Assembly: GCA_016617855.1 (NCBI GenBank)
Contig: JAECUM010093618.1
Location: forward strand, 1-64,000
Length of the DNA stretch: 64,000 nucleotides
DNA from: Megalonaias nervosa
Lineage: Eukaryota; Mollusca; Bivalvia; Unionida; Unionidae
Direction of reading: 5' to 3'
The notes beneath the pieces are model-generated. The model worked only from the letters and a program-made list of their open reading frames with translations, made no database searches and was not told where the DNA came from. The position numbers and the translations under genes were made by a program. The number at the start of each line of letters is the position of its first letter. The stretch's first letter is position 1. This document shows positions 1 through 7,079 of the stretch, piece by piece.

Positions 1-1756
1 CACTTTGTTCCGTATAGTATCTCAACAGAAATTGTCCATCGTATCCCGAGAAATTGTGAGCCATCACCGTGGCATGGCGATGACAATCTCCATAACGTTC
101 GATATCTTCTTGGCTCCACGTCTCGTCGATAGGGTCTAAGATCCATTGGGCAAAATCGGCTAGTGTGTTCGGTCCTCGAAAGATTTTTTCACGTCCTCCA
201 GGAATCTTGCTGCAATGAGGGCAATGAGCCAAGATAGGCTCTTGGATACACTTCTCGCACGCTCGGTGAGCCACGCAGAAATTAGGAATGTGAATGCCAG
301 TCTCTTGCATGCATTCGAAATCGAAAAAGATGAAATTCCCTTTCTTCTTCTGGTCATTATCTTCTTCTTCATGTTTAGAATGGTATTTTTGAATGTAGCA
401 TTGGTGTTCCAAGTCCACGATTTGGCGACAAATGTGACATCGTTTCTTTCCTCGACAAATGTGTAACTTAACACTATTGGTACGTATGCCTTGTCCACAA
501 GTAGGGCACAATCTCAAGAGCTGACAAGCACATTTCTGCTGTGAACCTTGCGTCTTTAGGTGTTGTTGGTAACAGGCAGGACTGACAAACGTGCGCTGAC
601 AAGCAGAGCAATGCACTCGTTCTTGTCCTTCGTCCAGACAGGGTGTAGAAGCTAAACATCCTGAGCATTTCGATCCGCAATGCTTATGTTGCTCTCGATT
701 GTTATAGCCATAGTCACATTTCTCACAGTAATAACTGTATCCCAGGAATGCAGTGATACTGGTAATGGCATCAAAATGTTCGTCGTGATGATAGACGTGA
801 ATGTATTTTCCGTCTTTAAAATCTTTACCTCGAAACAACAGAGGTCCGCGCACTTCTTGAGGGTGAACTTTCAAGGTGTAACGTGGAGCCAAGACGTCTT
901 GCAACTTTTGCATTTCAGGAATGCCACAGGGTGTGTCTTTAGCTAACCCCGCTTGCTGTAACAGGAGTTCTGCTTCTTTTCGTTGTTTGGCTCGGTCCGA
1001 TTGTTGAATAGTTTTCCAGGCTCTTTTCCATTCTACCGTATCGTTCTTGTCGGCATACGTTTGTCCCACCACGATGGCACGGGCTAAACACATCTTGTCT
1101 TTTGGATTGTTAATTTGGACGAGACTACGCTTGAGGTTACGCAAGTTGTCTACCAACATCAACTTTTTTTTACCTGTCCCTTGGGGAAGAGACACGTGGG
1201 TCATGTACAGTGTCGCTTTTCCGTCCGTGATGTGAAATTTGTCGTTGGATTGTTGTACGTGTTGAATCTTGTCCATGATTTTGGAAGGTGTCAATTCTGT
1301 TGGACTGCTAAACTCGATCCAAACGGGAGACTTCAAATTGTCGTGATGAATAGAAAGTCTCAAGCGATCGTCTTCTTTGGCTTGACATTGCCGTTTTAGT
1401 GTGGTTAACAAAGAATCCCACACATCGGTGATGAACCCTTCTGCTTTTTCCAAGGGTACGTCAGACTTGAAATCTTTAAACTTCACTGCGTACGTGTAGG
1501 CCGTGGTTCTAAATTTTCTGGAAGAGCGTTTGTCCGTCTCCCGAATATGGTAGTACTTTTCAGGGTTTACTGATGGTAATGGACTTTGATTTGGTGTAGA
1601 CTCTTTAGGCTTCGATTCTGGTTCACTCATCTCATCTTCAAAATCGCTGGCATGAATTTGTGCCAAGACTTCAGCTACTGTGCGAGGCGATAAATCACGT
1701 TTCTGCCTCTTACTTTCTTCTTCTTCTTTCTTTTCGAAATGATGCGATCGTTTCAT
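1..1756 (-). CDS. Family B DNA polymerase, N-terminal 585 codons (3' end outside window)
   Basis: The frame is open without interruption from the ATG at 1756 to the left edge. It begins with a charged, Lys/Glu-rich leader, then a long polymerase N-terminal region, a Cys/His-rich segment at about residues 340-450 (many CxxC pairs), and an exonuclease domain. Exo motif I reads FFDFEC, with the acidic pair at D479 and E481. A second set of CxxC residues follows, and Exo motif II reads AHNFSGYDGQF at about residues 562-572. This arrangement is that of protein-primed type PolB from Maverick/adintovirus-like elements; the polymerase palm lies outside the window. The start is supported by a TATA box 56 bp upstream in a divergent promoter. 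There are no stops or frameshifts, unlike the other PolB copies in this window. Membership of PolB is secure; the exact virus group is inference. Confidence 0.88.
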   Translation of the reverse strand, partial: MKRSHHFEKKEEEESKRQKRDLSPRTVAEVLAQIHASDFEDEMSEPESKPKESTPNQSPLPSVNPEKYYHIRETDKRSSRKFRTTAYTYAVKFKDFKSDVPLEKAEGFITDVWDSLLTTLKRQCQAKEDDRLRLSIHHDNLKSPVWIEFSSPTELTPSKIMDKIQHVQQSNDKFHITDGKATLYMTHVSLPQGTGKKKLMLVDNLRNLKRSLVQINNPKDKMCLARAIVVGQTYADKNDTVEWKRAWKTIQQSDRAKQRKEAELLLQQAGLAKDTPCGIPEMQKLQDVLAPRYTLKVHPQEVRGPLLFRGKDFKDGKYIHVYHHDEHFDAITSITAFLGYSYYCEKCDYGYNNREQHKHCGSKCSGCLASTPCLDEGQERVHCSACQRTFVSPACYQQHLKTQGSQQKCACQLLRLCPTCGQGIRTNSVKLHICRGKKRCHICRQIVDLEHQCYIQKYHSKHEEEDNDQKKKGNFIFFDFECMQETGIHIPNFCVAHRACEKCIQEPILAHCPHCSKIPGGREKIFRGPNTLADFAQWILDPIDETWSQEDIERYGDCHRHATVMAHNFSGYDGQFLLRYYTEQS

Positions 1757-1803
1757 CTTGACGGCAAAAAGTCAAATGACTACATGTGAAACACCATGAA
1801 CCC

Positions 1804-1837
1804 CTATATATCTATGTCAGACCAGGGCATATATAAA
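1804..1837. promoter_or_regulatory. Divergent TATA promoter between PolB and the zinc-knuckle gene
   Basis: Two TATA boxes lie back to back in 34 bp: TATATATAG on the minus strand (1804-1812), 56 bp from the PolB ATG, and TATATAAA on the plus strand (1830-1837), 61 bp from the ATG at 1891. The short, symmetrical layout is repeated at the next gene pair. Confidence 0.7.
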
Positions 1838-1890
1838 GGGCTAGTGACTCCCCTCTCAGTATTCATTTCGCTCTCAAGCCGACCAGCACA

Positions 1891-2343
1891 ATGGAAGAAC
1901 CCACACAGATCGAACTTCTGATTAGAGCATTGCGAGGTGTGATAAGAAAGTTTTCTTCAGACAAGCCGACGGACTACTCTCCTTCCTTTCGAGATAAAAG
2001 TCAAGATACTTGCTATATCTGTCAAAAGAAAGGGCATTGGGCTACAGAATGTCCAGACCGTCAAAGAAGCAAGGCCAGTGTCAAAAGAAACAAAAGTCAA
2101 GATACCTGTTATCATTGTCAAGAGAAAGGACATTGGTCTTCAGAGTGCCCTAAGAAACAACAGGAGCAGGAGAAGGAGGAAGAAGAAACAGAGGTGACCT
2201 CGACAAAAGAAGAACCCCGACACGTTCAGAAAGAGAAGACAGAAAAGAAAAGAAGACAAGAAAAATGTGAGGAAGAAGAAGAAGAAGAAGAAGAAGAGGA
2301 AAAAAGTGTAAAAGTGAAGAAATTGAAAAAACAGAGAGAGTGA
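1891..2343 (+). CDS. Two-knuckle CCHC zinc protein with acidic tail
   Basis: The protein has 150 residues. Two CX2CX4HX4C knuckles are visible, CYICQKKGHWATEC and CYHCQEKGHWSSEC, each preceded by the same KSQDTC sequence, so the knuckle module is an internal duplication. The C-terminal half is almost entirely Glu and Lys. CCHC knuckles bind single-stranded nucleic acid in retroviral and cellular proteins; here a role in replication or packaging is only inferred from its promoter shared with PolB. I see no canonical polyadenylation signal or histone-type stem-loop in the 240 bases after its stop. The gene is intact. It is not an ordinary Gag, because no capsid domain or reverse transcriptase is adjacent. 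Confidence 0.8.
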   Translation: MEEPTQIELLIRALRGVIRKFSSDKPTDYSPSFRDKSQDTCYICQKKGHWATECPDRQRSKASVKRNKSQDTCYHCQEKGHWSSECPKKQQEQEKEEEETEVTSTKEEPRHVQKEKTEKKRRQEKCEEEEEEEEEEEKSVKVKKLKKQRE

Positions 2344-2582
2344 AAGAAAAAAGACACAGAAGAAATCTATAAACTTTTTTAAAAGTGTTGTGTTGTGTTA
2401 TGTTGTGATATTGAATTGTAAAAAAATTTGTAACAGAATAGACCAAACTGAAAAAAACGTAAGTGTCTCTTGGTTTTCATTATTTAGAAATAATAAGGAC
2501 CTACACTCATACACTCACAACACGTACATCATAGGGTTAAAGAAGGGATTTTGAGTTTTAATTGATTTTGGCAAAATGAATA

Positions 2583-2623
2583 GTCACTCTTTTCGAGAGT
2601 ATTGGGTAGCCCTGAAAAGGACT
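2583..2623 (-). terminator. Histone-type mRNA 3' end of the coiled-coil gene
   Basis: Read on the minus strand, starting 31 bases after the stop codon of the coiled-coil gene, the 16-mer AGTCCTTTTCAGGGCT forms a 6-bp stem (one T.G pair) with a TTTC loop, followed by ACCCAA as in canonical histone mRNAs. About 9 bases further on is CTCGAAAAGAG, resembling the histone downstream element; its AAAAGAG is complementary to the CUCUUUU core of metazoan U7 snRNA. Stem-loop: 2608-2623; downstream element: 2583-2599. Confidence 0.72.
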
Positions 2624-2654
2624 GTTGAGTGTTTGTTTTTTCCTTAGAACAAAC

Positions 2655-3293
2655 TCAGGAACGAGAATCAATTCGCTTTAACTGCCTTAAGCCTTTGCCA
2701 CGGCCAAGGCCTACTTGTGGACTTGCTCCTGTCAATGATTTAGTAGATATCACTAGGGGTGGTATCTGTGGTGTAGTCACAGGGTTAGGTTGTTTGGCTC
2801 GGGAAGGTCTTTTTCTCTTGGGTCGTAATAAAGAAGTCTGATACATTTGTTTCAGACTTCTTAACTCGGCCAAAATGTCCAAGAGTACCGTGACCGTTTG
2901 ACTTTCTCTGTTCTCCTTCTCTTCTAGACTTTGTTTCTTCTCTACTGCTTCTTCTTCTTCCTGTCGTTTCCTTCTTGCCTCTTCTTCTTCTCGCTGTTGC
3001 TGTTCAAGAAGAAATGCTTGCTCTGCTTCTTTCTGCTGCTGTAAAAATTTCTCCAATTCTTCTCTCTGTCTTTGTTTAAAATCGTCGACACGTGGTAAAG
3101 AAGGAGAAAGTGGCGAAGGTACTGATACCGGAACAAATTCTTGGGAAGAAGATAAAAAATCTACTAAATCCCAGTTGAAATCAACCTCTTCGGGAAGTAG
3201 CACTGTGTTCACTTTGGTAGCTGCTGCTATACCATTACTTCTCGTCTCCACAGCCGGTGCACCCCAATTCATTGTCTTCTTAGGTTCCGTCAT
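2655..3293 (-). CDS. Glu/Gln-rich coiled-coil protein of the virus-like unit
   Basis: The protein has 212 residues and I do not recognise the family. The first 70 residues are Pro/Ser-rich and probably disordered. Residues about 70-165 are a continuous charged stretch rich in E, Q, K and R, predicted to be a long coiled coil. The C-terminus is basic (LRPKRKRPSRAK) and could bind nucleic acid or serve as a nuclear signal. The start is 52 bp from a TATA box in the divergent promoter shared with the gene at 3529. Its message appears to end in a histone-type stem-loop. The frame is intact. A scaffold, core or terminal-protein role is possible but not shown. Confidence 0.7.
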   Translation of the reverse strand: MTEPKKTMNWGAPAVETRSNGIAAATKVNTVLLPEEVDFNWDLVDFLSSSQEFVPVSVPSPLSPSLPRVDDFKQRQREELEKFLQQQKEAEQAFLLEQQQREEEEARRKRQEEEEAVEKKQSLEEKENRESQTVTVLLDILAELRSLKQMYQTSLLRPKRKRPSRAKQPNPVTTPQIPPLVISTKSLTGASPQVGLGRGKGLRQLKRIDSRS

Positions 3294-3344
3294 GTTTCAC
3301 AAAACAATACCGCATCGATTCACTGCGCACAGACGCTAGTGTGC

Positions 3345-3482
3345 CTATATAGGAAATGTGACGTCACAGGTAGCTCTCTTCGGATTGGAAGACAGACTCC
3401 GCGAAGTGACTGAATTTTGTAACGCGTGTTGGGATTGGTGAACCCTTTCAATCCGTTTCGATCCGGTCTTCCACTATAAATA
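3345..3482. promoter_or_regulatory. Divergent promoter with TATA, inverted CCAAT and CRE sites
   Basis: TATA boxes lie at 3345-3353 (minus, 52 bp from the ATG at 3293) and 3475-3482 (TATAAATA, 54 bp before the ATG at 3529). Between them are a perfect CRE/ATF palindrome TGACGTCA (3359-3366) and two ATTGG motifs, inverted CCAAT boxes, at 3384-3388 and 3434-3438. The arrangement resembles a divergent histone gene-pair promoter. Confidence 0.65.
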
Positions 3483-3528
3483 AACGCGGTTCACTTCATT
3501 CCCTTCACCTGTTCTCGTCACAGAGAAG

Positions 3529-3783
3529 ATGTTGATCGACGTAGAATCCTCTACTTTGGTATCCTCAATGCTGTTCCGTACAGACTTACCCATGTATGTG
3601 AAAACAAAATGGACTGTCATCCGGATCACCGGTGCCACTATTTGGAAAAGAAGATGTTATGTGGAAAGACAAGGCTGTCTTAAGCGGACTCTCATCTACG
3701 GACCAGAAGTGAGACACAGTTTAAGACAAACTTTGAGAAATTTGAGGAAGAAAAGAAGACCTATGCGATGTCCTGTATGTTAA
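3529..3783 (+). CDS. Small basic protein of the virus-like unit
   Basis: The protein has 84 residues; the N-terminal 25 are neutral to acidic and the rest is strongly basic, ending in an Arg/Lys-rich stretch and CPVC. The family is not recognised. A real gene is supported by its TATA box 54 bp upstream, an uninterrupted frame, and a near-consensus histone-type stem-loop 33 bases after the stop. The composition suggests a DNA-binding or condensing protein, but it has no recognisable histone fold. The terminal CxxC could bind metal with another partner. Confidence 0.65.
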   Translation: MLIDVESSTLVSSMLFRTDLPMYVKTKWTVIRITGATIWKRRCYVERQGCLKRTLIYGPEVRHSLRQTLRNLRKKRRPMRCPVC

Positions 3784-3815
3784 CGGAATGGTGTTAACAT
3801 CACATAACAAACAAC

Positions 3816-3852
3816 GGCCCTTTTCAGGGCCACTTCCAATGCCTCGAAAAGA
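3816..3852 (+). terminator. Histone-type mRNA 3' end of the small basic gene
   Basis: GGCCCTTTTCAGGGCC (3816-3831) fits the metazoan replication-dependent histone stem-loop pattern: 6-bp stem opening with GG, loop TTTC, stem closed by T-A. It is preceded by ACAAC and followed by ACTTCC. CTCGAAAAGATC begins about 11 bases downstream, sharing CTCGAAAAGA with the element after the neighbouring gene. In histone genes such a stem-loop is bound by SLBP and the downstream element by U7 snRNP. Confidence 0.78.
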
Positions 3853-3889
3853 TCTTAAATTTCATTTTGTCTCCACCCTAAACGAATAT

Positions 3890-4013
3890 ATAAAATCCTT
3901 CCTCTACTAAAAAACACGAACGCTCTTGATTCGTGTTTGTCTATAGCCCTCTCTCAGGTAGCCTGACGTCACAGTACTTCTCTTTTTGCTACATTGTTAC
4001 CAGTGTGACGTCA
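3890..4013 (+). promoter_or_regulatory. Orphan TATA box, hairpin and two CRE sites
   Basis: TATATAAAA lies at about 3890-3898. Twenty bases later is a perfect 9-bp hairpin (arms AAACACGAA and TTCGTGTTT, 9-nt loop, about 3913-3940). Two further perfect TGACGTCA sites lie at 3964-3971 and 4006-4013. No convincing open frame follows; the longest is about 31 codons from the ATG at 4013. It may drive a small RNA or be an end or origin region of the unit. Confidence 0.45.
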
Positions 4014-4028
4014 TGCCACCTGTCGCTT

Positions 4029-4215
4029 ATCGCTATACAAACCCACAGTATATTAGTCGCCACTCTACCCAATTTCCATTGACGCTATACAGGCCCAGGG
4101 TGTGCTAGTCACTCTACCCAATTTTCCATTGACGCTATACAGGCCCAGGGTGTGCTTTTATTTCTTGACGCTATACGGGCCCGGGGGGGGGGGGGCTGTA
4201 ATGCTAATTCCCATT
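4029..4215. repeat. 60-bp tandem repeats and a G13 run near the right end of the unit
   Basis: Two near-identical units of about 60 bp contain GACGCTATACAGGCCCAGG and CACTCTACCCAATTT, followed by two partial units. A GC-rich patch, GGGCCC plus 13 G, lies at about 4177-4195. The repeats sit where the compact coding unit gives way to AT-rich host DNA, so they may mark its end. Confidence 0.6.
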
Positions 4216-4354
4216 GACGCTACGGTAACCCCTATTACTACTGATACTTGTTTTAAAGCCTTGTAAATAGCTTTAGGGCATCAACGTCATTCATGGATTA
4301 AAGTTGTGTATTTTTTAGTTTTGATAATGCTTCCAGTAGGAATGGGGTATGCCT

Positions 4355-4489
4355 GCTTTAACAACTGTTAGTGTAACACATTTGGCGCTTTAACAACTGT
4401 TAGTGTAACACATTTGGTGCTTTAACAACTGTTAGTGTAACACATTTGGGTGCTTTAACAACTGTTAGTGTAATACATTTGGGTGAACA
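4355..4489. repeat. 32-bp minisatellite, four copies
   Basis: Four head-to-tail copies of a unit containing CTTTAACAACTGTTAGTGTA and then ACACATTTGG, almost identical to one another, so recently amplified. No coding content is seen between here and the SINE at 4692. Confidence 0.85.
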
Positions 4490-4691
4490 ATTAAACATAT
4501 TTCACAAAGTTCAGCATCCCTGTCAGAATGCTCAGTGAAAGCAGTTTGAGGATGTTATAATTTCATTTTCTTTTTAAATGCATTTCTAATTCAGCTTCGC
4601 ATATTTTAAATTTAATGCTTTTAAGTATTTCCTTTTTGTTCCTGTTGTACACTAGCCATTCCTAGAGAAATTCTTCCAACATTTATTGACC

Positions 4692-5020
4692 GCCCCGGTG
4701 GCCTAGTGGTTAGAGCGTCAGCCTCAGATGCGGGAGGTCGCGGGTTCGAACCCCGACAGAATCATACCAAAGACTTCAAAAAATGGTACTAACAGGTGCC
4801 TCGCTTGGCGCTCAGTATTAAGAGGTTAGTGTTAGGACTGGTCGGCCTGGTGTCAGGATAATGTGACTGGGTGGGACATCATGCCACATGTTTGCGACAT
4901 GATGCCCCAGTGCTAGACATCACTATAAACTGTCACACTGCAGACATCGTAGCGATATGACTGAAAAATTGTTAAAGCTATGTTAACAATCTAAATCTCT
5001 CACTCACTCACTCACTCACT
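4692..5020 (+). mobile_element. tRNA-derived SINE, family A, copy 1
   Basis: The head is tRNA-like with RNA polymerase III A box (TGGCCTAGTGG) and B box (GGTTCGAACCC). A core of about 250 bp follows, ending in TGAAAAATTGTTAAAGC and a CTCACT-type tail. The same core recurs at 38,158 (plus) and 51,957 (minus), which proves a dispersed family. This copy has the best preserved promoter boxes. It is not a functional tRNA: no acceptor stem closes it. Confidence 0.85.
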
Positions 5021-5767
5021 CCAACATTTATTAAATTATTTCAATAAAACGTTAATTTAGCAATATTAATAAGGTCAGACACCAAGATAATGCTGGACAA
5101 GTTGAGTTGTCCTACCTCAATGCTTGCGTAGCAAGGATCCGCTTGACATTAGGCAAACAAAAAGAATGTTATATTATCTTGATTTTGTTATATATCTGCA
5201 ACCTTTACCTGTCATAAATCTTTTCTCCGCCATAAATCGTTCCACCATCTACAACTACCAAATCTTTTGGACGGCTTGCATTTGGTGCAAGGAAAGACTG
5301 CACTTATTTTGAAGATGCAAGGTCTAAATCACTGTGACGAAAAAGGACAAAAATGATGGCGACAAAATAACATTAGTTCTACATCACATACCTCAAAAGC
5401 ACTTTTTGGAAGGTTATCAATGGTGAAAAAAAGAAGTTTGGTGGCATTGGGGTCATAGGTCAAGGTCGCAGTGACTGTTAGAAAATTGGTTTCTGCACAA
5501 TAACATTAGTTCTACATCACAGACCGAGACTAAACTCGGTGGATGGCTTGCACTTAGGTTCATGAAGAAGCTTGTCATTTTTTAAGTCAAAGGTTGAGGT
5601 CCCTGAACAAAACAAACAATTGCAATAGGCAATTCACCTACCAAATGGCAGAATGAACTGATGAACAGATGACTGTAATGAAAGGTGATTACTGTACTAT
5701 AAGGCTCCTGAAGCTCGATGCTTAGGCGTTTGGTCCTTAAAGAATTTCAGATTTCAGAGTTGCATTA

Positions 5768-5856
<89 letters not shown>

Positions 5857-7079
5857 GGCAAGCTCTGTGTAGACTCATCAGAGGTGAACATAGTGGTATC
5901 GATATAGGGCTTTTAGTATTTGTTTACTACTACAGGACAAAGTCTTCAATATCCCAAATCTTTGCCCATAATTAACACAGGAGTGTAAATTACATGTTAA
6001 CCTGTGATGATCCTCAAGTAATGTTAATATATTGGGGTCGGTGCATAGTTGTAGCTGCCTACCACTGTTAATATTGATCACACACCATTTTATATAATAT
6101 ATTATACAGAGACTGTCAGAATATAATTCAGAGAATATATCCCTTATGAGAATATTTTATATTTATTGTGGTTATAATTCTATGCAATATATTGCATGAG
6201 AATAGTATGGCTACAATATATTTCGCAGCGATTGTGTCAGAATGATATTGAACAATAGTCGTGGCATTTATTATTTAAATTGTAACAAATTAAGATTGAT
6301 GCATACAGTATCTTAAAATAATTTTGAGTAGATCCAATTCTGGGATTAAATTGCTGGAGTAATGAAGGGTTTCTAAGGTTACGAAAGGTTAAATCTCTGT
6401 TTCATTTGCTTAGTTTAGATCACATACAGTTTTTTCAGAGGTTCAGACGATGTACGATTTTTCAGTTGCATATACGAAGCCTTTTGATAAGTGATCAAAG
6501 TAGGAATTATCTTGGAAGCGCAATGACTGCGGCTTGACCAATTTTCTGAGAAAAAAAAATGTTTAAAATCAGTGTTTGATATTATGCGGAGAAATGAAGT
6601 AGCTGACATGGAGTATACCATCGATTGTAGATGAAATGATGATCATCCATCGTGGATCAAGTGAACAGTAATGTCTCTAAAGATGGTGTAATTAGCGAAT
6701 ATAGTAAATGTTGCAGCAGTGGAGATCAAGGATAATTTAATTAACAATATGCTTTTGACATTATAAAGGCATATATGCCCACCGATTTCAAGAATACAAA
6801 AAAAATTCAATGACGAAGAAGGGGGACAGCTGGCATTATATGATATGTACGAAAGATCTATTTAATCAAAGAATAGTCAGCATGGATTATATGTATAAGT
6901 TGCACAAAAGGTTTGTGATTTTTGGACATCAACGTAAACAGAGTCTTAGTTGAAGTTTGATTGTACGATGGATTACAGGTACTTTAACCTGATTTACGCT
7001 TGAACGAAATCTGATCGAAAATTACATGAACTTTAGGCTTGGGTAACTGCATTTTATTGACTTACCGCAGTTTCCCAAT
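5021..7079. other. Non-coding AT-rich host DNA
   Basis: No convincing gene. It holds an imperfect repeat around 5365-5515 (ATAACATTAGTTCTACATCAC occurs twice), a microsatellite block at 5771-5857 and AT-rich unique sequence. Short frames here have no recognisable domains. Confidence 0.6.
5771..5857. repeat. Compound (CT)n(AT)n(AC)n microsatellite
   Basis: About 39 bases of CT are followed by about 24 of AT and about 23 of AC, all perfect. Confidence 0.95.

Follow-up and report, generated by a model that had tools for sequence, protein, structure and literature searches.

Maverick/Polinton elements are described as carrying genes for capsid proteins, an ATPase, an adenoviral-like protease, a family B DNA polymerase (PolB), and an integrase, together with terminal repeats (PMC9683012). 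Animal histone pre-mRNA is processed by a separate system, in which SLBP binds a hairpin and the U7 snRNP pairs with a downstream element, and in which CPSF73 cuts between the hairpin and the downstream element, leaving the upstream fragment as the mature mRNA (PMC7026596). Animal histone genes can also carry polyadenylation signals (PMC1924863). The locus presented here resembles both systems. With Mavericks/Polintons, including adintoviruses, it shares a family B polymerase relative, an adenain-type protease, terminal inverted repeats, a distance of ~20 kb between the outer signals, and many integrated copies; unlike any described member known to us or found in the literature search, it has signals for histone-type mRNA 3' ends. 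With the 3' ends of metazoan replication-dependent histone genes it shares a 6-bp stem closed by a UUUC loop and followed at most sites by AC, a purine-rich element after a spacer of 13 to 16 nt, and hairpin letters equal to those of the host histone genes. Unlike those genes, the genes that carry the signal here are non-histone genes (among their products are a basic 84-amino-acid [aa] protein and one predicted to form a coiled coil) that belong to a mobile, virus-derived element, and the loop of one of them, gene E, is UCUC or UCGC in the fetched copies.

The window, meaning the whole stretch of DNA that was analyzed, comprises the opening 64,000 bases of contig C52700 from Megalonaias nervosa, and the genome searched totaled 2.19 Gb. 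Positions 1 to 4242 (numbered from the first base of the window) hold the right-hand part of an element, the left part of which would lie beyond the start of the contig. The element appears to be an endogenous DNA virus of the Maverick/Polinton-like kind, seen here at its right end, given its PolB relative, adenain-type protease, and terminal inverted repeats. The polymerase gene (positions 2 to 1756, minus strand) is open at the contig start, and its 3' end lies outside the window. The piece present, the N-terminal 585 aa, was 40% identical over 93% to a protein (P0001) that carries DNA_pol_B_2; this N-terminal piece itself gave no DNA_pol_B_2 match in Pfam. The two named homologs of the piece are from Mya arenaria. 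A 150-aa CCHC protein with two zinc knuckles is encoded at positions 1891 to 2343 on the plus strand (Pfam zf-CCHC, E = 3.8e-14). The adenain-type protease was found in another copy of the element (L002, positions 292 to 762), where the Peptidase_C5 match (E = 0.0021, 18.2 bits) was below the Pfam cut-off of 21.3. In PDB searches, for which the queries were the PolB piece, the protease, and one capsid-like open reading frame (ORF), the protease matched S273R (E = 0.00075) and adenain (E = 0.01 to 0.04), a weak but consistent match. ORFs in a 3-kb piece of one copy (L094) have motifs by which we take them to resemble minor and major capsid proteins; Pfam, the PDB (one ORF), and viral contigs gave no support for a capsid identity. 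No relatives of the element were found in viral contigs, and no DNA of a relative was found from other species.

The right edge of the element was located by alignment of the window with other loci containing gene A, the rightmost gene of the window's element. In 28 of 29 such loci, the edge fell at window positions 4242 to 4246; the 29th (L055) was left out of the alignment, its hairpin differing from the search string. In 14 of 30 loci, including the window's own, the terminus TATTACTACT was present letter for letter with unrelated sequence beyond it, the other 16 being without the 17-base search string used for the terminus. The right end of the element reads ...ACT. A terminal inverted repeat region containing the gene A signal is assigned to positions 3816 to 4242 (plus strand) from comparison with other copies, its partner being outside the window. 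In one such copy, on contig C16, the two ends (L004 and L006) are inverted with respect to each other and match at 94% across a 66-base stretch that includes the hairpin, and at 86% over 180 bases. Two loci on contig C4 (L001 and L003) are likewise inverted, with 94% over 72 bases and 89% over 61 bases.

Two genes of the window, A and B, lie on opposite strands. Gene A (positions 3529 to 3783, plus strand, with its TAA stop codon at 3781 to 3783) encodes an 84-aa protein with a pI of 10.9, the predicted structure of which was uninformative (pLDDT of 55). Gene B (positions 2655 to 3293, minus strand) encodes a 212-aa protein with an acidic/hydrophobic N terminus, a basic C terminus, and, in the AlphaFold2 model (mean pLDDT of 69, pTM of 0.25), a long helix from residue 67 to residue 154 that is likely a coiled coil; 19 homologs of gene B were found at 64 to 90% identity. 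Searches of genes A and B in Pfam and PHROGs, and of a further gene, C, in Pfam, returned weak matches or none. A captured histone gene was considered and rejected, as no histone frame precedes the hairpins of the window.

The preliminary description had claimed, from the letters of the sequence, that each of these two non-histone genes is followed by a 16-nt stem-loop with a TTTC loop and by a downstream element, and both signals were confirmed by direct reading. The stem-loop of gene A, GGCCCTTTTCAGGGCC, is at positions 3816 to 3831 (plus strand), 32 nt past the stop codon. That of gene B, AGTCCTTTTCAGGGCT, is at positions 2608 to 2623 (minus strand), 31 nt past the stop codon, and is followed by ACCCAA. 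The candidate histone downstream element CTCGAAAAGA follows both hairpins, at positions 3843 to 3852 on the plus strand for gene A and at positions 2597 to 2588 on the minus strand for gene B. The resemblance to histone 3' ends was borne out by the Rfam Histone3 model (RF00032) in part: the model aligned over its full length at the ends of gene A (positions 3811 to 3856, plus strand; 32.4 bits, E = 1.8e-6) and gene B (positions 2628 to 2582, minus strand; 24.1 bits, E = 0.0022), with both scores under the gathering score of 34, and a scan of the window at the gathering threshold was empty. The loose pattern CCYTTTTCARGG, with two or fewer mismatches allowed, occurred 17 times in the window against 16.9 expected, which is the level of chance. 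What makes up the signal in the window is the combination of hairpin, gene-end position, and downstream element; the loose core does not do so by itself.

Genome-wide, the exact core CCCTTTTCAGGG occurred 5,725 + 5,869 times, compared with 27 + 32 times for the reversed control. The core CYTTTTCARGG followed 6 to 18 nt later by AAAAGA was found at 6,642 + 6,811 = 13,453 sites, compared with 29 + 21 = 50 for the control read backwards. A chance origin was rejected on the basis of these counts against reversed controls. Among 75 scored genome sites, drawn from 423,121 first-look candidates, Histone3 scored above its gathering cut-off at 66, with a best score of 44.1 bits. At about four hairpin-plus-AAAAGA sites per element, the counts suggest a copy number of ~3 thousand. 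When the gene A protein was compared with the genome, 100% identity was found for 35 of 150 scored matches (from 6,678 first-look candidates), one of the 35 being the window's own copy.

The host genome was interrogated for histone genes and for the factors that process their transcripts. PF00125 gave 11 matches and an H4 query gave 7, many of them fragments or interrupted by stops, and neither search located the main histone cluster. A hairpin followed the histone frame in three of the 18 histone loci (L069, L072, and L074). The only intact gene of the three, L072, is H2A.X-like and ends in SQEY; its 16-mer, GGCCCTTTTCAGGGCC, is identical to the gene A hairpin and is followed by AGAAAAGATG, the sequence past the 16-mer reading ACCAAATAGCCAGAAAAGATG (37.8 bits, above the cut-off). 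L069, an H2B-like locus that has lost its stop codon, has the identical 16-mer followed by TGTAAAAGAAA (30.7 bits, below the cut-off), and L074, a damaged H2B-like locus, has the 16-mer with one mismatch followed by TAGATAAGATG (24.5 bits, below the cut-off). The host histone loci have AAAAGA-type downstream elements, as do the genes of the mobile element. No histone-type hairpin was present in the fetched piece of the best H4 locus (L080); a hairpin near another H4-like match (L085) resembles the type found in the mobile element. Exons for the RNA-binding part of host SLBP were represented by PF15247 matches at two neighboring places on contig C954 (67.6 and 39.5 bits; cut-off, 27). Host U7 was not found by an Rfam U7 search of the genome, which returned nothing above the cut-off, or by Sm-site patterns, the first of which had 11 matches compared with 12 for its control and the second, which was repeat-rich, 137 compared with 76; none of the 11 fetched Sm-site pieces contained a convincing U7 hairpin.

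Processing of the host type is the likeliest reading of these signals, since they are host-like and similarly spaced. On balance, we consider it probable that the right end of a Maverick/Polinton-like element is present and that the transcripts of genes A and B, at whose ends the histone-type hairpins and purine-rich elements stand, are cut by the host SLBP/U7 machinery to give mRNAs lacking poly(A). The hairpin in the nascent element transcript would be bound by host SLBP, after which U7 snRNA would pair with (G)AAAAGA(G) and CPSF73 would cut between the hairpin and the downstream element. The resulting messages would come under the rules of histone mRNA, being stable and translated where SLBP is present, as in S phase, oocytes, and early embryos, and degraded elsewhere. 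We infer, in short, poly(A)-less mRNAs that would be coupled to the abundance of SLBP.

Polyadenylation is where this reading meets its strongest rival, under which SLBP would bind the hairpin while the mRNAs are polyadenylated further downstream, the hairpin acting in translation, localization, or stability. A possible back-up polyadenylation signal of gene B, ATTAAA, is located at positions 2557 to 2562 (minus strand), ~25 nt past the downstream element, and AATAAA or ATTAAA occurred within 200 nt past the hairpin in 38 of 102 cases, compared with 24% of random 200-mers. The signals are not depleted, and this, together with the ATTAAA of gene B, counts against an exclusively histone-type ending. 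A hairpin near a possible poly(A) signal is also reminiscent of Caenorhabditis elegans, in which histone genes carry the hairpin and AATAAA close together; the worm genes have an AATCC element (PMC1924863), in contrast to the host-like AAAAGA type found here. The arrangement downstream of the hairpin nevertheless makes this alternative unlikely. AAAAGA followed the hairpin after a near-fixed spacer of 13 to 16 nt in 46 of 52 distinct hairpin/downstream combinations (a set that includes host genes and one chance match), and the element matches that of the host H2A.X-like gene, as U7-type cleavage would need. Gene A, moreover, has no AATAAA or ATTAAA between its stop codon and the end of its downstream element.

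Copies of the element elsewhere in the genome were examined for the same signals. In 30 near-identical loci picked by the gene A protein, hairpin A had six of six pairs in 29 and five of six in one, and an AAAGA-type element followed it in 29. Hairpin B and its downstream element were both present in 28 of these 30 loci, the other two being clipped by contig ends. Ten divergent gene A copies, also picked by protein (10 of 150 listed), all had the hairpin in place together with AAAAGA, and the stem was fully paired in seven. The stop codon was lost in one of these ten copies. The gene B copies picked by protein (3 of 150) all had a paired stem and the element, with a TTTC loop in two and an altered loop in one. 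Conservation among divergent copies averaged 0.99 for the hairpin, 0.90 for the element, 0.53 for the upstream untranslated region (UTR), and 0.38 for the 30 nt past the element of gene A (9 representatives), and 0.90, 0.96, 0.62, and 0.80, respectively, for gene B (13 representatives), values that are inflated, as the gene A copies were mostly fetched by the hairpin and every counted copy was required to have it, and that leave one gene B copy without a recognized element (L037) out of the element averages. The fair comparison is that with the copies chosen by protein sequence. A gene A homolog from an ENA record (P0017), 63 to 74% identical, reads past the end of gene A as KPFSGPLTLLEN, which, judging from the protein letters, can be a translation of the hairpin followed by CTCGAAAA in that frame.

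The preliminary description had argued for function from stems that differ by compensating or wobble changes, and it had taken related elements without a stem-loop as the observation that would speak against it. Within this genome, the hairpin was kept in the protein-picked copies, and the changes in the stems were of the kind described. Stems varied among the 110 hairpin matches in the fetched loci. Across 17 distinct stems, decayed ones included, 93.1% of cells were paired, compared with 5 to 73% in slid controls; in this set, pairs 1 and 2 had exchanges between G-C and A-U that altered both sides, and pair 3 had wobble. Stem covariation was 0.252, compared with 0.180 in shuffled stems, and one of 500 shuffles was as high; two of the five covariation measures were not above the shuffles (both-side-changed pairs, 2, 191/500; further pair types, 5, 185/500). 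The set was built from eleven stems, of which two were dropped (a non-hairpin match and a host H2B-like stem), and to which eight were added. Its rows are related copies chosen by hand, and the covariation is therefore taken as support rather than proof.

The same signal was found at further sites along the element. Gene C (188 aa) has it on the sense strand, 17 nt past the stop codon in L003. Site D has it as well, where the hairpin of L008 is traversed by an open reading frame. At gene E, the signal is again on the sense strand and the stems are fully paired, with a TCTC loop in six of seven printed loci (four of five distinct copies) and a TCGC loop in L008; a gene E-type site in contig C112 has a TTTC loop. 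With A and B, this makes at least four genes of the element that carry the signal. Site types were judged visually from their sequence. Among the first 100 sites listed, at least seven contigs (C4, C16, C112, C154, C161, C181, and C192) show the order C, D, B, A, and in C112, where the loop of E fits the search pattern, E falls between C and D. Sites C, E, D, and B are oriented one way and A the opposite way. The span from C to A was 19.3 to 20.2 kb in six of the seven contigs and 34.9 kb in C4. The sites on another contig, C67, depart from this order. No further exact site was present between D and B in any of the seven contigs among the listed sites, under a pattern that misses loop variants. 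The histone-type signal seems to mark a subset of the genes of the element, since there is no histone-type hairpin in the 3-kb capsid-like piece or 3' of the zinc-knuckle gene of the window, where positions 1 to 6000 contain only two Histone3 matches.

The distribution of the sites bears on whether the hairpins are at work in the element today. They could be a relic, with a host histone 3' end taken up a single time by an ancestral element and then spread by copying and repeat homogenization, with no present function. The C and A signals sit in the inverted repeat, where they are alike within a copy and amount to one signal in two places rather than two independent ones; many of the copies are young and of common ancestry; and a likeness to the spacer of host H2B (CATATATCT-type) is seen in some of the spacers of the element. 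Sites B, D, and E, in contrast, are separate and internal and are found on the sense strand of different genes, with different stems in which compensatory or wobble changes keep the pairing, and the hairpin and AAAAGA are retained in the divergent copies picked by protein. A relic is accordingly regarded as quite improbable. A function of the virus's own, in which a terminal DNA palindrome or a virus-type 3' hairpin is bound by an element protein and the likeness to histone genes is convergent, would suit the two of five sites that lie in terminal inverted repeats and the use of hairpins as mRNA ends by some large DNA viruses, but it is very hard to credit when the host histone genes have the same loop, the same stem letters, and the same asymmetric downstream element and when three of the five sites are internal, tracking strand and gene end and not DNA termini.

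Under the preferred reading, cleavage by the host SLBP/U7 machinery, the element would make selected small accessory proteins, namely A, B, C, E, and perhaps D, while host DNA replicates and the histone machinery is available, and other genes of the element probably end otherwise. The element appears to be of a known kind and its way of ending mRNAs appears to be new. We know of no described Maverick/Polinton member with histone-type mRNA 3' ends, and histone-type 3' processing is generally regarded as serving hardly any genes but those of histones. A literature search by titles and the starts of abstracts, which covered few subscription papers, turned up, among the papers listed, none on Mavericks, adintoviruses, or other viruses that deals with 3' ends of the histone type; the preliminary description likewise knew of no described PolB element doing this. 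In the accessible text of one paper (PMC11071296), the word "histone" appears twice, for a histone-like viral protein, and "stem-loop" does not appear.

A wider interpretation is offered tentatively, with somewhat less than even confidence. A Maverick-type lineage may have adopted the animal histone 3'-end system as a regulon switch, by which its accessory genes would give poly(A)-less, replication-coupled messages in oocytes, embryos, and S-phase cells. Such a switch may have aided the amplification of the element to thousands of copies, and the hairpins of the element, which would outnumber the host's own, may tax SLBP and U7. If several genes of a virus-derived element do use histone-type processing, this would be a new viral strategy for ending mRNAs, and it would raise the question of whether SLBP and U7 are drawn away from the host's histone mRNAs by thousands of element hairpins.

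The palindrome TGACGTCA was read by eye at three positions in the window. The first (positions 3359 to 3366) separates the divergently oriented genes A and B, two element genes that end in a histone-type hairpin and downstream element; the other two are in the terminal region of the element (3964 to 3971 and 4006 to 4013). Palindromes of this form are CREB/ATF-type sites. Short tandem repeats resembling TTGACGCTATACAGGCCC were also visible by eye in the terminal region (4060 to 4200), as were short tandem repeats of differing units in the end regions of host genome loci L004 and L006. Between the family B DNA polymerase gene piece and gene B, and convergent with the latter, lies a gene for a CCHC zinc-knuckle protein (1891 to 2343); no histone-type end was found after this gene, and AATAAA was absent from the 480 bases downstream. 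Beyond the element end, a tRNA-like stretch (4692 to 4764; 26.0 bits, under the tRNA gathering score of 29) is perhaps the start of a SINE. CTCA repeats follow it near position 5000.

Each hairpin-bearing histone gene in the host genome (contigs C4555, C5748, and C13988) was a single H2A.X-like or H2B-like locus, and two of the three were damaged. The searches of this assembly did not turn up the core histone cluster.

In the element copy on contig C67 (sites 36190, 38171, 53658, and 54989), the gene B and gene A signals run in the same direction, in contrast to their usual opposite arrangement, which may reflect an inversion or an assembly join. At the ends of gene E, a further element gene, in loci L002, L005, L008, L009, and L031, the hairpins had TCTC or TCGC loops on paired stems, and most were accompanied by a CTAGAAAAGAG-like element. 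These hairpins would constitute a natural series of loop variants for SLBP binding.
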